Shown: piece after piece, positions 11,188 to 62,574 of the stretch
How the letters are laid out: every line of letters starts with the position of its first letter
Numbering within the stretch: the first letter of the stretch is position 1
NCBI GenBank assembly: GCA_016187945.1
Contig: JACPIT010000011.1
Location: 124,001 to 188,000, forward strand
Length of the DNA: 64,000 bases
Direction of reading: 5' to 3'
From: Opitutia bacterium
GTDB taxonomy: Bacteria > Verrucomicrobiota > Verrucomicrobiia > Opitutales > Opitutaceae
Translations under genes and position numbers: made by a program
Notes under the pieces: model-generated
What the model was told of the DNA's origin: nothing
What the model saw: the letters and a program-made list of their open reading frames with translations, nothing else
Databases searched by the model: none

Positions 11188-11332
11188 AAGCGCCAAGCCC
11201 CAACCTCCAAGCTCCAAAGAAGCACCAACGCCAAAAAACAAATATCGAATCGAAGTCACTCCCGCGAGGCCTGACTCCGACTTTGATGATTGGGAGTTTC
11301 TCTGGAATTTGGCGGTTGGAGCTTGGAGCTTT
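11188..11332. repeat. AAGCTCC-type inverted-repeat element, diverged solo copy E
   Basis: Left arm AAGCGCCAAGCCCCAACC and onward; right arm ends GGTTGGAGCTTGGAGCTT. No ORF inside. It separates ribH and ribBA. Same family as the four copies in the pyrimidine cluster (57236-57771, 59271-59413, 60817-60944, 62464-62574), but the arms are more mutated. Confidence 0.8.
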
Positions 11333-27933: not shown

Positions 27934-28020
27934 AACCACTAATGGACACTAATGAACACTAATGCCTGAGAGTGATTGGCCGGTGTGCTCATGAGTGATG
28001 ATTAGTGTGGATTAGTGGTT
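27934..28020. repeat. CACTAAT-type inverted-repeat element between nuoK and nuoL
   Basis: Left arm AACCACTAATGGACACTAAT, right arm GATTAGTGTGGATTAGTGGTT-like, ending at 28020. No ORF. Confidence 0.85.
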
Positions 28021-29542: not shown

Positions 29543-29603
29543 GCGGCGTGGGAAGGTCAGAGGTTTTCCGCGGAGGGCGCGGAGGAGCGCGGATGGATCG
29601 GAT

Positions 29604-33049: not shown

Positions 33050-33068
33050 CTCGGGAAAATTCGGATTA

Positions 33069-33146
33069 GCCCACGAAACACACGAAATCACACGAAAGGG
33101 CGGTGACGTTCGGTGCAGCGGTTTTCATTTCGTGTGTTTCGTGGGC
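33069..33146. repeat. CCCACGAAACACACGAAATC inverted repeat, copy 1
   Basis: Arms GCCCACGAAACACACGAAAT and ATTTCGTGTGTTTCGTGGGC with a loop containing GCGGTGACGTTCGGTG, between nuoF and nuoG. It is almost identical to 35761-35848. Confidence 0.92.
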
Positions 33147-33162
33147 GAAAAATTCGGGAAAA

Positions 33163-35760: not shown

Positions 35761-35848
35761 GCCCACGAAACACACGAAATCACACGAAAGAGCGGTGACG
35801 TTCGGTGCGGCGGTTTTCATTTCGTGTCTTTTCGTGTGTTTCGTGGGC
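35761..35848. repeat. CCCACGAAACACACGAAATC inverted repeat, copy 2
   Basis: Starts GCCCACGAAACACACGAAAT and ends TTCGTGTGTTTCGTGGGC, between nuoD and nuoE. It shares the loop sequence GCGGTGACGTTCGGTG with copy 1 at 33069-33146, in the same orientation. Confidence 0.92.
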
Positions 35849-37140: not shown

Positions 37141-37225
37141 GACCACGGAAGACACAGAAAACACGGAAGGCTTTCGGTGTGAGGCGTTGAAATTCATTTC
37201 TGTGTGTTCCGTGTGTTCTGTGGTC
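37141..37225. repeat. ACCACGGAAGACACAG-type inverted repeat
   Basis: Left arm GACCACGGAAGACACAGAAA, right arm ending GTGTTCTGTGGTC, between nuoC and nuoD. Just beside it, 37095-37128 contains short tandem GCGGAATGCGGAGTGCGGAA-like units. Confidence 0.85.
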
Positions 37226-44536: not shown

Positions 44537-44641
44537 AATCTTTCCTCTTTCTCTTAATCCTTCTCTCTCTCTCTCCCGCACGATGCCGCCCGGAGAAGCA
44601 GACCGAGAGAAAGAGAAAGATTAAGAGGAAAGAGAAAGATT
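44537..44641. repeat. Polypyrimidine/polypurine inverted repeat between sufU and sufS
   Basis: Left arm AATCTTTCCTCTTTCTCTTA, right arm AAGAGGAAAGAGAAAGATT, nearly perfect over about 24 bases, with a loop including CTCTCTCTCT. Besides its hairpin potential, each arm is strand-biased purine/pyrimidine DNA, able in principle to form a triplex. Confidence 0.9.
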
Positions 44642-57229: not shown

Positions 57230-57235
57230 ACGATG

Positions 57236-57771
57236 AAGCTCCAAGCTCCAACATCCAAGCTCCAGAGAAACTCCAAATCGGCCAAGCAGGTCGACGGAAG
57301 GAGCGGCGATTATCCCGAGCGCGAATTCATCCTCGGAGTTGTGAATGAGGACATGGCGAGCGAGCGGCATCCCTTCGATCTGGAGGAACGGACCGCGCTG
57401 TTTGGCGAGGGAATTATCCGTTTCCTCAAACAAGTCCCGCGCGGGCCGCACAACGACCGTTTGATCGATCAGCTCACGGGATGCGGCACGGCTATCGGAG
57501 CAAACTACTGCGAAGCCAACGAAGGGCTCTCGAAAAAAGACTTCCGCAACATCATCGGTCGGTGCCGCAAAGAGGCGAAGGAAGCGAAATTTTTCCTGCG
57601 CATGATCGCTGCCTCAGAGCCGGTGCTCGCGGCCGACGCACGAACGCTGTTCCGCGAAGCCAAAGAACTTCACCTCATTTTCTGCACCATCTACCGCAAC
57701 GCCGCTCCATGAACCGCGCCCATTTGAAGCTTGGTGCTTCTCTGGAGCTTGGATGTTGGAGCTTGGAGCTT
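57236..57771. mobile_element. AAGCTCC-type inverted-repeat element, copy A, carrying a four-helix-bundle gene
   Basis: Left terminal arm (57236-57276) starts AAGCTCCAAGCTCCAACATC. The right arm (57726-57771) ends with the inverted copy GATGTTGGAGCTTGGAGCTT. The arms match almost perfectly for about 34 bases. Between them is a 119-residue four-helix-bundle protein gene. The related elements E, B, C and D keep the arms but carry no gene. No transposase is encoded, so movement would need help in trans or retro/hairpin-type mobility. Confidence 0.75.
57353..57712 (+). CDS. Four-helix-bundle protein (S23/IVP family) inside the repeat element
   Basis: 119 residues from ATG 57353; an upstream in-frame ATG at 57233 would translate the repeat arm (MKLQAPTSKLQRNSK) and is less likely. 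The family is the small four-helix-bundle (TIGR02436/S23-like) proteins known from 23S rRNA intervening sequences and related to the Avd protein of diversity-generating retroelements. Four amphipathic helices are seen: ERTALFGEGIIRFLKQV, RLIDQLTGCGTAIGANYCEA, SKKDFRNIIGRCRKEAKEAK, and RTLFREAKELHLIFCTIYRN, with the family signature IGANYCEANEG. Basic surfaces suggest nucleic-acid binding. It lies between preA and the semialdehyde dehydrogenase but is unrelated in function. Confidence 0.85.
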   Translation: MASERHPFDLEERTALFGEGIIRFLKQVPRGPHNDRLIDQLTGCGTAIGANYCEANEGLSKKDFRNIIGRCRKEAKEAKFFLRMIAASEPVLAADARTLFREAKELHLIFCTIYRNAAP

Positions 57772-57779
57772 CCCCAACA

Positions 57780-59270: not shown

Positions 59271-59413
59271 AAGCTCCAAGCCCGGCTTCGCCGAAGCTCC
59301 AAGCACCAAGATCCAAGCTCCAGAGAAACTTCAAAACCCAAACACCCAAGCCCTCCCGCGCCCCTTTGAAGCTTGGTGCTTCTCTGGAGCTTGGATGTTG
59401 GAGCTTGGAGCTT
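59271..59413. repeat. AAGCTCC-type inverted-repeat element, copy B (no gene)
   Basis: Starts AAGCTCCAAGCCCGGCTTCG right after the mmsA stop, and ends GATGTTGGAGCTTGGAGCTT 9 bases before the dihydropyrimidinase ATG. It has a long imperfect hairpin with an AAACACCCAAGCCC loop. Confidence 0.92.
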
Positions 59414-60805: not shown

Positions 60806-60816
60806 TCCGCGCCCGA

Positions 60817-60944
60817 AAGCACCAAGCACCAAACCCCAAGCACCAGAGAAACTCCAAGACACAAGAACCCAAACGCTCCGCAACTTCTCCTGAGTTTTGA
60901 AGCTTGGTGCTTCTCTGGAGCTTGGATGTTGGAGCTTGGAGCTT
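60817..60944. repeat. AAGCTCC-type inverted-repeat element, copy C (no gene)
   Basis: Left arm diverged (AAGCACCAAGCACCAAACCC), right arm intact and ending GATGTTGGAGCTTGGAGCTT 6 bases before the permease ATG. GGAG in the arm has a 9-base spacing to that ATG, a good SD distance. Confidence 0.92.
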
Positions 60945-60950
60945 TTCTTC

Positions 60951-62453
60951 ATGAACTCCGGCCTCACGCACAACGCCCCCGACGTCGAATTCGACCTCGC
61001 GCAGCTCCACTCCTCCTCGCTCTACAACGCCGACCTCGCGCCCGTCGGCGCCGCGCAGCGCAAGTGGGGCCTGCTCAGCTTCGCCGCGCTCTGGGTGTCG
61101 ATGTCGGCGTGCATCCCGACCTACATGCTCGCCTCCTCGCTCATCGGCGGCGGCATGAATTGGTCGCAGGCGATCGGCACGATCTTCCTCGGCAACCTGA
61201 TCGTCGTGCTGCCGATGATCCTCAACGCCCACGCCGGCACGAAATACGGCATCCCCTTCCCCGTGTTCTGCCGCGCCTCGTTCGGCACCGCGGGCGCCAA
61301 CGTTCCCGCGATGCTGCGCGCGTTCGTGGCGTGCGGCTGGTTCGGCATCCAGACGTGGATCGGCGGCAACGCCATCTACAAAATCCTCGCCGTCTTCGTC
61401 CCGTCGCTCGCCAGCGGCTCGACCGACAATCTTCTCGGCATCACCGGCGCGCAGTTCGCCTGCTTCCTGTTTTTCTGGGCGATCAACATGGCGGTGATCT
61501 GGCGCGGCATCGACACCATCCGCGTGCTCCTGAACATCAAGGCGCCCCTCCTCATCGCCCTCGGCCTGCTGCTGCTCTGGTGGGCCTATCGCTCCGCCGG
61601 CGGCTTCGGCCCGATCCTCTCGCAACCGTCTGCCTTCGACGCCGGCCAGCCGAAGGCGGGACAATTCTGGGCGTTCTTCTTCCCCGCGCTCACCGGCATG
61701 GTCGGCTTCTGGGCGACGCTCTCGCTCAACATCCCCGATTTCTCCCGCTACGCCTACACGCAGCGCGACCAGGCGCTGGGCCAGCTCGTCGGCCTGCCCA
61801 CCACGATGGCGCTCTACTCGTTCATCGGCGTCGCAGTCACGTCGGCCACCACCATCATCTACGGCACCACCATCTGGGATCCGGTCGACGTGCTCACGCG
61901 CTTCACGAATCCCGTGCTGCTCGTCGTCGCCATGCTCGCGCTCTGCATCGCCACCCTCGCGACCAACATCGCCGCCAACGTCGTCTCCCCCGCCAACGAC
62001 TTCGCCCACCTCGCGCCGAAAAAAATCTCCTTCCGCACCGGCGGCCTCGTCACCGGCGTCATCGGCATCGCCATGATGCCGTGGAAACTCGTCGCCGATC
62101 CGAACGGTTACATCTTCGTCTGGCTGATCGCCTACAGCGCGCTGCTCGGCCCGATCGGCGGCGTGATGATCGCCGACTACTTCGTCGTGCGCCGCACGCA
62201 GCTCAGCGTCGCCGATCTCTACCGCACCGACGGCGCGTATCGCTACACCGGCGGCTTCAGCCTCGTCGCGCTCGCCGCACTCGTGCTCGGCATCGCGCCG
62301 AGCCTGCCGGGCTTCCTCGCCACGGTGAAACTGATCGACGGCACGCACGTGCCCGCCGCGCTGCTCTCGCTCTACAACTACGCGTGGTTCGTCGGCTTCG
62401 CCCTCGCGTTCGCCGCCTACGTCGCGCTCCGCAAACTCGCGCCGCGCGCGTGA
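60951..62453 (+). CDS. NCS1-family nucleobase/hydantoin permease
   Basis: 500-residue inner-membrane symporter of the nucleobase-cation-symport-1 family with about 12 helices. Family marks are the N-terminal soluble stretch followed by FAALWVSMSACIPTYMLASS, the substrate-site loop WFGIQTWIGGNAIYKI, and NIPDFSRYAYTQRDQALGQL. GPIGGVMIADYFVVRR is the typical C-terminal motif. Relatives transport uracil, allantoin or hydantoins; uracil/thymine or their dihydro forms are likely here. ATG 60951 follows the repeat arm. Confidence 0.93.
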   Translation: MNSGLTHNAPDVEFDLAQLHSSSLYNADLAPVGAAQRKWGLLSFAALWVSMSACIPTYMLASSLIGGGMNWSQAIGTIFLGNLIVVLPMILNAHAGTKYGIPFPVFCRASFGTAGANVPAMLRAFVACGWFGIQTWIGGNAIYKILAVFVPSLASGSTDNLLGITGAQFACFLFFWAINMAVIWRGIDTIRVLLNIKAPLLIALGLLLLWWAYRSAGGFGPILSQPSAFDAGQPKAGQFWAFFFPALTGMVGFWATLSLNIPDFSRYAYTQRDQALGQLVGLPTTMALYSFIGVAVTSATTIIYGTTIWDPVDVLTRFTNPVLLVVAMLALCIATLATNIAANVVSPANDFAHLAPKKISFRTGGLVTGVIGIAMMPWKLVADPNGYIFVWLIAYSALLGPIGGVMIADYFVVRRTQLSVADLYRTDGAYRYTGGFSLVALAALVLGIAPSLPGFLATVKLIDGTHVPAALLSLYNYAWFVGFALAFAAYVALRKLAPRA

Positions 62454-62463
62454 GCGCGCGGCG

Positions 62464-62574
62464 AAGCTCCAAGCTCCAACATCCAAGCTCCAGAGAAACT
62501 TCAAAACCCAAACACCCACGCCCCCTTTGAAGTTTGGTGCTTCTCTGGAGCTTGGAGATTGGAGCTTGGAGCTT
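62464..62574. repeat. AAGCTCC-type inverted-repeat element, copy D (no gene)
   Basis: Best-preserved solo copy: arm AAGCTCCAAGCTCCAACATC and inverted arm ending AGATTGGAGCTTGGAGCTT, 111 bases. It lies between the permease and the aminotransferase gene. Confidence 0.93.

Follow-up and report, generated by a model that had tools for sequence, protein, structure and literature searches.

Heptamer-armed elements around IVP/S23 four-helix-bundle genes: a possible transposase-free repeat class in an Opitutaceae genome and beyond

Introduction

The window considered here, a stretch of 64,000 nucleotides from an Opitutia bacterium (GCA_016187945.1, contig JACPIT010000011.1, positions 124,001 to 188,000), contains a gene of the IVP/S23 type between two long inverted arms and, at other places, pairs of similar arms with no gene between them. 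What kind of element is this, and what does its protein have to do with its arms? According to the accessible text of PMC4990558, proteins of the IVP/S23 type are spread over many phyla but lack a known function, the intervening element of 23S rRNA has complementary sequences at its borders and is of unclear function and origin, and the IVP protein of Xanthomonas is called a homopentamer.

A first, sequence-only reading of the window suggested that the element is transposase-free and that its protein may be either a cargo or a partner in mobility. We propose, with a probability of about one half, that the element at 57235–57772 is a full-length member of a widespread, transposase-free, REP-like two-component class, in which the protein reads its own heptamer array. 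In REP/REPIN systems, short units occur alone or as inverted pairs, many per genome, and the RAYT gene is accompanied by matching repeats.

The element and its relatives in the window

The arms lie at 57235..57276 and 57731..57772 of the forward strand; they are 42 nt each, 95% complementary and thus able to pair, with a spacing of 454 nt. The left (5′) arm reads AAGCTCC AAGCTCC AACATCC AAGCTCC AGAGAAACTCCAA, a tandem run of degenerate 7-nt repeats (lag-7 match 0.57, best lag 7), and the right (3′) arm is its inverse complement. Between them, on the same strand at 57353..57712, is a gene of 119 amino acids that matches the four-helix-bundle family PF05635 (IVP/S23) with 35.3 bits against a cut-off of 33.8; an upstream ATG at 57233, immediately ahead of the left arm, would extend the open frame through that arm (159 aa). 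The near-perfect arms and the S23-type gene of 119 residues described in the sequence-only reading are therefore real, and their coordinates were correct to a few bases. As to insertion in rRNA, the window has no rRNA family match at gathering scores, and the neighbours of the element are protein ORFs.

An 18-mer from the arm has nine matches in the window, where 0.08 are expected. Gene-less elements of the same arm type, all given on the forward strand, are located at 59271..59413 (inverted pair with period-7 arms recovered at 59294–59413, fold z −8.0), at 60816..60945 (z −6.4) and 62464..62574 (z −11.7), which are likewise inverted pairs with period-7 arms, and, in a more diverged form, at 11188..11332 (pair recovered at 11202–11332, z −7.5). 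The four relatives reported earlier thus exist, and in RNA folding all four beat 200 shuffles. The element at 59271..59413 sits between genes that by eye resemble those of an aldehyde dehydrogenase and a dihydropyrimidinase, and a genus relative (G044, L160) has a same-type element at the equivalent place. A 10-bp hairpin, CGCCGCGCGC-GTGA-GCGCGCGGCG (62440..62463, forward strand), is exactly flush with the unit that begins at 62464, and its loop takes in the upstream gene's stop codon. A further gene-less inverted pair, at 44537..44641 on the forward strand, has arms that resemble, by eye, those of another host IVP gene (L003), with a lag-7 match of only 0.40 and a best lag of 6. The hairpins of 60816–60945 and 11188–11332 have one mismatch about every 7 bases, and stem mismatches in IVP elements keep a common heptamer phase above chance (22% and 24% versus 12%).

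Other repeat classes share this neighbourhood. In the host family, GxxExxY genes (PF13366; L179–L182, L303–L332) lie between inverted arms at 26 of the 31 loci used (three short ones of 34 being set aside), compared with 8% of mispaired flanks. Their arms have a period of about 9–10 (best lag 9 in 14/26 and 10 in 7/26; e.g., AACCACGGAGAACACGGAG), and they are a second, parallel class of element. Gene-less pairs at 27934–28020, 33066–33149, 35761–35848 and 37144–37213 of the window resemble GxxExxY arms by eye, and at L009, around the locus at 1480–2160, elements of ~10-nt period appear by eye to be nested next to two heptamer elements or within their loops. GTAG-type REP palindromes occur at 29603, 45899, 49816 and 55721 of the window, and the TGTAGGAGCGGCTTTACGCCGCGA type of them flanks the Y1 transposase gene L349 (C15:188191), the match of which starts 191 nt past the window end.

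Period-7 arms at IVP genes

A PF05635 profile search of the host genome gives seven matches, six of them above the cut-off. All six of these genes lie between inverted arms, and the arm sequence differs from gene to gene, the heptamers being GTTGAGA, GTTGAGG/TTGAAGG, TTTCTCT/TTAATC, ATTTTCG, CAAACGC and, for the element in the window, AAGCTCC. The seventh, weak match (L007) has no inverted arms.

The family is present in at least 35 of the 41 host-family genomes. From these we assembled 119 distinct genes with flanks (124 less three duplicates and two edge genes), mostly the best-scoring among the matches listed, and 97 of them reach an inverted-arm score of at least 13. Flanks that were mispaired do so in 2.8% of 2380 cases, and places drawn at random from the window in 4.1% of 2000. 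The arms of the 97 loci match themselves at lags 7, 14 and 21 with values of 0.646, 0.645 and 0.63, other lags giving 0.24–0.33, and the best lag is 7 in 76. Several of the 22 loci below the arm cut still have heptamers by eye; the apparent true exceptions, also by eye, are L007, the first gene of L129, and L095. L007 and the first gene of L129 seem by eye to belong to a PF05635-like subfamily lacking heptamer arms, and arms of ~10-nt period lie near L007 (by eye).

The same arrangement is found on plasmids and in other phyla. Inverted arms are present in 11 of 12 plasmid loci (mostly cyanobacterial, examined from 31 matches, with L147 and L149 near-copies of each other), 10 of them with a lag-7 match of at least 0.66; the exceptions are L156, which does not pass the inverted test, and L157, with a lag-7 match of 0.44. 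Named genome loci from several phyla (75 used of 80, after removal of one duplicate and four at edges) pass the arm test in 63 cases and miss the cut in 12, with a lag-7 match of 0.70 and a best lag of 7 in 60/63. Mispaired flanks of these named loci pass in 18%, because arms within a close subfamily resemble each other. In 40 of the 63 named arms, selected and phased on two or more AGC in register, the heptamer is A-G-C-N-R-T-Y, positions beyond AGC being also alike (150 heptamers), and the number of AGC cores per arm varies from 2 to 15. The association of gene and arms on which the sequence-only reading depended thus holds at most loci of all three sets (97/119, 11/12 and 63/75). In two distant cyanobacterial plasmids, an IVP element separates cas6 from cas4 in a CRISPR locus (L152, L153).

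Gene-less units in the host genome

Three of the six host arm types were counted genome-wide. The AAGCTCC type of the window has 42 exact 14-mer copies (reversed pattern, 0), a second type 90 pattern matches in 52 arrays (reversed control, 14), and a third 139 pattern matches (reversed control, 0). The whole genome, by comparison, has only seven PF05635 matches. For the window type, 27–28 two-armed elements were resolved, and its 30 first or best listed loci have no IVP remnant. At the loci examined, 30 per arm type and again the first or best listed, an inverted partner lies within 700 nt of 25/29 window-type, 16/27 L004-type and 6/17 L001-type arrays; the others (4/29, 11/27 and 11/17, respectively) are solo.

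In stacked copies, picked by their likeness to a fixed-length consensus, conservation falls off at the unit edges. The unit measures 31 nt in the L004 type (37 copies, five of them identical), 30 nt in the L001 type (18 copies) and ~34–41 nt in the window type (62 copies). The heptamer units are, in other words, short dispersed units found as singlets and inverted doublets. Samples of 200 kb contained 0 heptamer pairs in a genome lacking IVP and 3, 2 and 0 in three genomes having it (0, 0, 2 and 1 when shuffled), a thin sampling in which the host is no better than shuffled sequence.

Arms, protein and selection

Arms are alike in 47 of 156 gene pairs with at least 60% protein identity and in 7 of 4391 pairs below 50%; the Mantel value for arm against protein similarity is 0.235, which 0/500 permutations reached (largest 0.12). 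Thirty-four of the 47 pairs have homologous genes on both flanks and 13 on neither, and the 34, with both flanking genes in common, look like old, vertically inherited insertions. When shared sites are left out, arms are alike in 13/83 pairs at 60% identity or more versus 7/4349 below 50%, the 13 falling into about four groups; in the remaining 70 of the 83, from unrelated places, the arms are not alike by this measure. Where the proteins are alike and the arms are not (109 pairs), both flanks are common in 38, one in 1 and none in 70, and the 38 are cases in which the arms drift in place. Judged from sequence, then, arm type tends to follow the protein, imperfectly. The case that would speak against the sequence-only reading, independent insertion of the gene into an old repeat, is unlikely because the arms change with the gene.

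Both partners appear to be kept by selection. Purifying selection on the protein is seen in a dN/dS of 0.03–0.12, obtained for 8 of the 12 pairs chosen at shared sites; dS was saturated in the remaining four. Over 107 shared-site pairs, mean arm identity is 0.676 (over the shorter arm), a generous figure since local alignment may slide by one heptamer, versus 0.388 at four-fold sites and a random-pair level of 0.231; arm identity is the higher in 93 of the 107. Compensatory changes between arms (127 both-sided, 20 one-sided, 94 broken) are set aside because the arms were selected for pairing. A purely selfish cargo, one of the roles first suggested for the protein, fits poorly with the low dN/dS and with the 34 of 47 vertical-looking pairs.

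The placement of the elements is also regular. The upstream stop lies a median of 4 nt before the left arm (resolved in 88 of 97 host-family loci), and the distance from the end of that arm to the first in-frame start codon of IVP has a median of 14 nt (again 88 loci). An ATG that opens at least 60 codons lies within 25 nt past the right arm in 46/97 loci, compared with 22% of random places; the search for starts and stops was confined to set limits around the arms and is thereby biased towards short distances. According to a gene caller that is known to err, 75 of the 119 IVP genes are co-directional with tandem neighbours, 5 are opposite, 7 convergent, 1 divergent and 31 unresolved. The strand context of gene-less copies was discarded, as four gene callers were unstable and one called a known tandem gap convergent; only the strand count for IVP genes is used here. 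In 12 genus genomes including the host (a 13th match was too poor and was left out), the gap downstream of trpB holds, by eye, one IVP type, another IVP type, other repeat units, or nothing. Filled and empty sites, of the sort that the sequence-only reading had looked to, are therefore seen, though the empty ones may equally be losses and no insertion was caught under way.

Selection and placement could also be read in another way, with IVP as a TRAP-like RNA-binding regulator of heptamer arrays near start codons, the gene-less copies as its sites in other operons, its own arms as a means of autoregulation, and dispersal as secondary. TRAP is a ring that binds RNA on a run of short repeats, and an IVP ring would work alike if it bound short RNA repeats, although TRAP is an unrelated protein with another repeat spacing. 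The low dN/dS, the arms that are more alike than four-fold sites, the short distances to the IVP start and to an ATG near the right arm, the 75 co-directional genes versus 5 opposite, and a heptamer motif with fixed and free positions all favour such a regulon. It would make use of the same protein–array binding as our proposal and differ in what selection keeps. Against it, copies at unrelated places have a common length and heptamer order, and five of them are identical over 31 nt, which needs copying and not selection alone; furthermore, the contents of the trpB and carB spacers vary between species (by eye). We regard a regulon as the main alternative, albeit a rather unlikely one.

Entry into spacers

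How, then, would a unit enter a spacer? None of 46 inverted pairs has a target-site duplication as long as 3 nt (0 nt in 40, 1 nt in 5 and 2 nt in 1). The search for mobility enzymes in the host genome, which is 95.7% complete, covered RVT_1 and Y1_Tnp: PF00078 (RVT_1) gave no match and 0 first-pass candidates, and heptamer arms occur at 0/8 of the Y1 transposase loci, the eight genes accompanying GTAG-type or other palindromes. With neither duplicated targets nor a match to reverse transcriptase, and with Y1 genes that go with other repeats, entry probably proceeds via host replication or repair. The transposase-free element of the sequence-only reading holds up as far as RVT_1 and Y1 proteins are concerned, as it does for arm association and abundant gene-less copies; the protein may help the element to spread.

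A hint as to the manner of entry comes from hairpins (stem of at least 6, within 4 nt) on the outer side of the units. They are found at 30/117 units, 26 of them exactly flush, whereas such stems occur on the inner side of 3/117 units, at 2.9% of random places, and at 4.3% when one place 0–20 nt past each stop is taken. Because hairpins within 30 nt of stops are not rare (20/107 gene ends have one with a stem of at least 6 somewhere in that range), the notable feature is their flush position. With stems of at least 7 within 8 nt, the count is 28/117 units (24 flush) versus 47/3000 random places with even offsets; such hairpins are seen at 0/72 flanks of the host's other repeat classes. The host-family IVP loci have a hairpin on the left in 18/97 cases (10 flush) and on the right in 8/97 (4 flush), the L004 type has a flush one in 1/37 units at the strictest setting, and at the named loci of other phyla flush hairpins with stems of at least 6 number 0/55 on the left and 0/61 on the right.

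At the end of carB, a hairpin with a perfect 13-bp stem, CCGTCGCGATGGC-GTA-GCCATCGCGACGG, precedes the unit. It is present in none of 10 orthologous carB ends, the nearest being those of G042, whose 10-bp stem has one mismatch and where by eye there is also a degenerate heptamer array, and of G045 and G047, with 6-bp stems. Since the hairpin is missing in these relatives, its second half, which matches the host coding strand, appears only with the element. The argument for fold-back copying is drawn from this one ortholog comparison. The flush hairpins suggest a template-switch step in the host family, which in the one checked case would have copied the host strand. The carB 3′ spacer of two species (L416 of G041 and L414 of G000) carries, by eye, heptamer arrays of different types.

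It might be argued that the elements are retroelements moved in trans by a reverse transcriptase, IVP acting like Avd. Avd of diversity-generating retroelements is a four-helix bundle of the same fold class and a pentamer; the hairpin RNA would be stable, and the flush hairpins could be taken to resemble self-primed copying. However, the host genome has no PF00078 match, and a profile search of the PDB (E ≤ 0.001) found only 2gsc and 2rld, of five chains each, as solved relatives, and not Avd. We consider such a retroelement improbable. Equally improbable, in our judgement, are MITE-like miniature elements of an ordinary transposase supplied elsewhere, with the IVP gene as a passenger. Terminal inverted arms, gene-less alongside gene-bearing forms and copies by the dozen are what one would expect of MITEs, but not the absence of target duplications of at least 3 nt from all 46 inverted pairs, the many solo arrays, the Y1 loci with their other palindromes, or a single protein family between so many different arm sequences. 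Finally, ordinary microsatellites born of polymerase slippage, into which a gene falls now and then, are very improbable: repeats within one arm can change together (element 60816, by eye) and the accessible text of PMC4692102 holds a hypothesis tying heptamers to slippage, but the copies have a common unit length and edges, arms co-vary with the protein, and genes lie within inverted pairs at 97/119 loci.

A proposed mechanism

We return to the two-component element that reads its own array. Its unit is an array of about 4–5 degenerate heptamers (about 30 nt) that occurs alone, as a gene-less inverted pair, or as an inverted pair enclosing a single IVP/S23 gene. For each of the three counted host arm types, one IVP gene accompanies dozens of gene-less copies, and the copies lie in short operon spacers. 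In view of the co-variation, the nucleic acid that each IVP protein recognises is most likely the heptamer found in its own arms. It is tempting to propose that a five-chain ring would suit the uptake of a run of heptamers; as the number of AGC cores varies, agreement with five subunits is no more than suggestive. The hairpins flush with the unit may mark a template-switch step in which the host strand is copied. Once in place, the array adjoins start codons and can fold as a stable RNA hairpin.

The likeness of these elements to REP/REPIN–RAYT systems lies in units that are singlets or doublets, in their many copies, and in a gene flanked by matching repeats; they differ in having period 7 and no Y1 nuclease, and the Y1 genes of the host go with other palindromes. 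From Avd systems they differ in that the host genome lacks a reverse transcriptase match and the PDB profile search did not reach Avd. With the 23S rRNA intervening sequences that carry an S23/IVP ORF (Leptospira, Coxiella), they have in common a PF05635 protein between complementary ends, although those sequences lie in rRNA and the host elements lie in spacers between protein genes. A locus of Azospirillum (L158) that reads by eye as 23S rRNA has period-7 arms, as in the spacer elements; as to other 23S-borne copies, among 208 IVP loci its flanks matched only L158 itself and none of the 207 others.

A 7-nt period in intergenic DNA, near genes or starts, is shared by the IVP arms and units with several published simple repeats. 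STRRs (Calothrix) and small dispersed repeats are reported from cyanobacteria. As far as the accessible texts go, GGGNATC heptamer repeats occur in Xanthomonas and Nostoc, have no known role and form inverted pairs, commonly so in Xanthomonas (PMC4692102), while TAACTGA repeats in intergenic regions of Beggiatoaceae lie near start codons, a post-transcriptional regulator being proposed for them (PMC4679880); a survey cited in the latter ranked heptamers first in abundance among long simple repeats in most genomes. Our comparison with STRR, GGGNATC and TAACTGA repeats follows these published descriptions. The phrase "four helix" is absent from the texts of PMC4692102 and PMC4679880, and in the open-licence PMC literature, to the extent that its texts were available, we found no description of heptamer arms, protein-specific arm types, dispersed gene-less copies, or a link between IVP and heptamers.

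A wider proposal can be made more tentatively: an undescribed mobile class that encodes neither a nuclease nor a transposase nor a reverse transcriptase, in which each protein would read its own heptamer and the ~30-nt units would spread by host-templated fold-back copying. It would have the heptamer repeats of cyanobacteria, xanthomonads and other groups, known for long but unexplained, as its gene-less copies and the GxxExxY class, of ~9–10 nt, as its parallel. We think this possible, though on balance doubtful.

Significance

The findings point to an undescribed kind of repeat element and to a possible origin of bacterial seven-base repeats. Tying IVP to heptamers supplies a testable ligand for the protein, namely its own arms, and a testable origin for the repeats. 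The 23S rRNA intervening sequences look, in this light, like one landing place of a general element, and the findings suggest a class of short elements that spread with no recognisable transposition enzyme.
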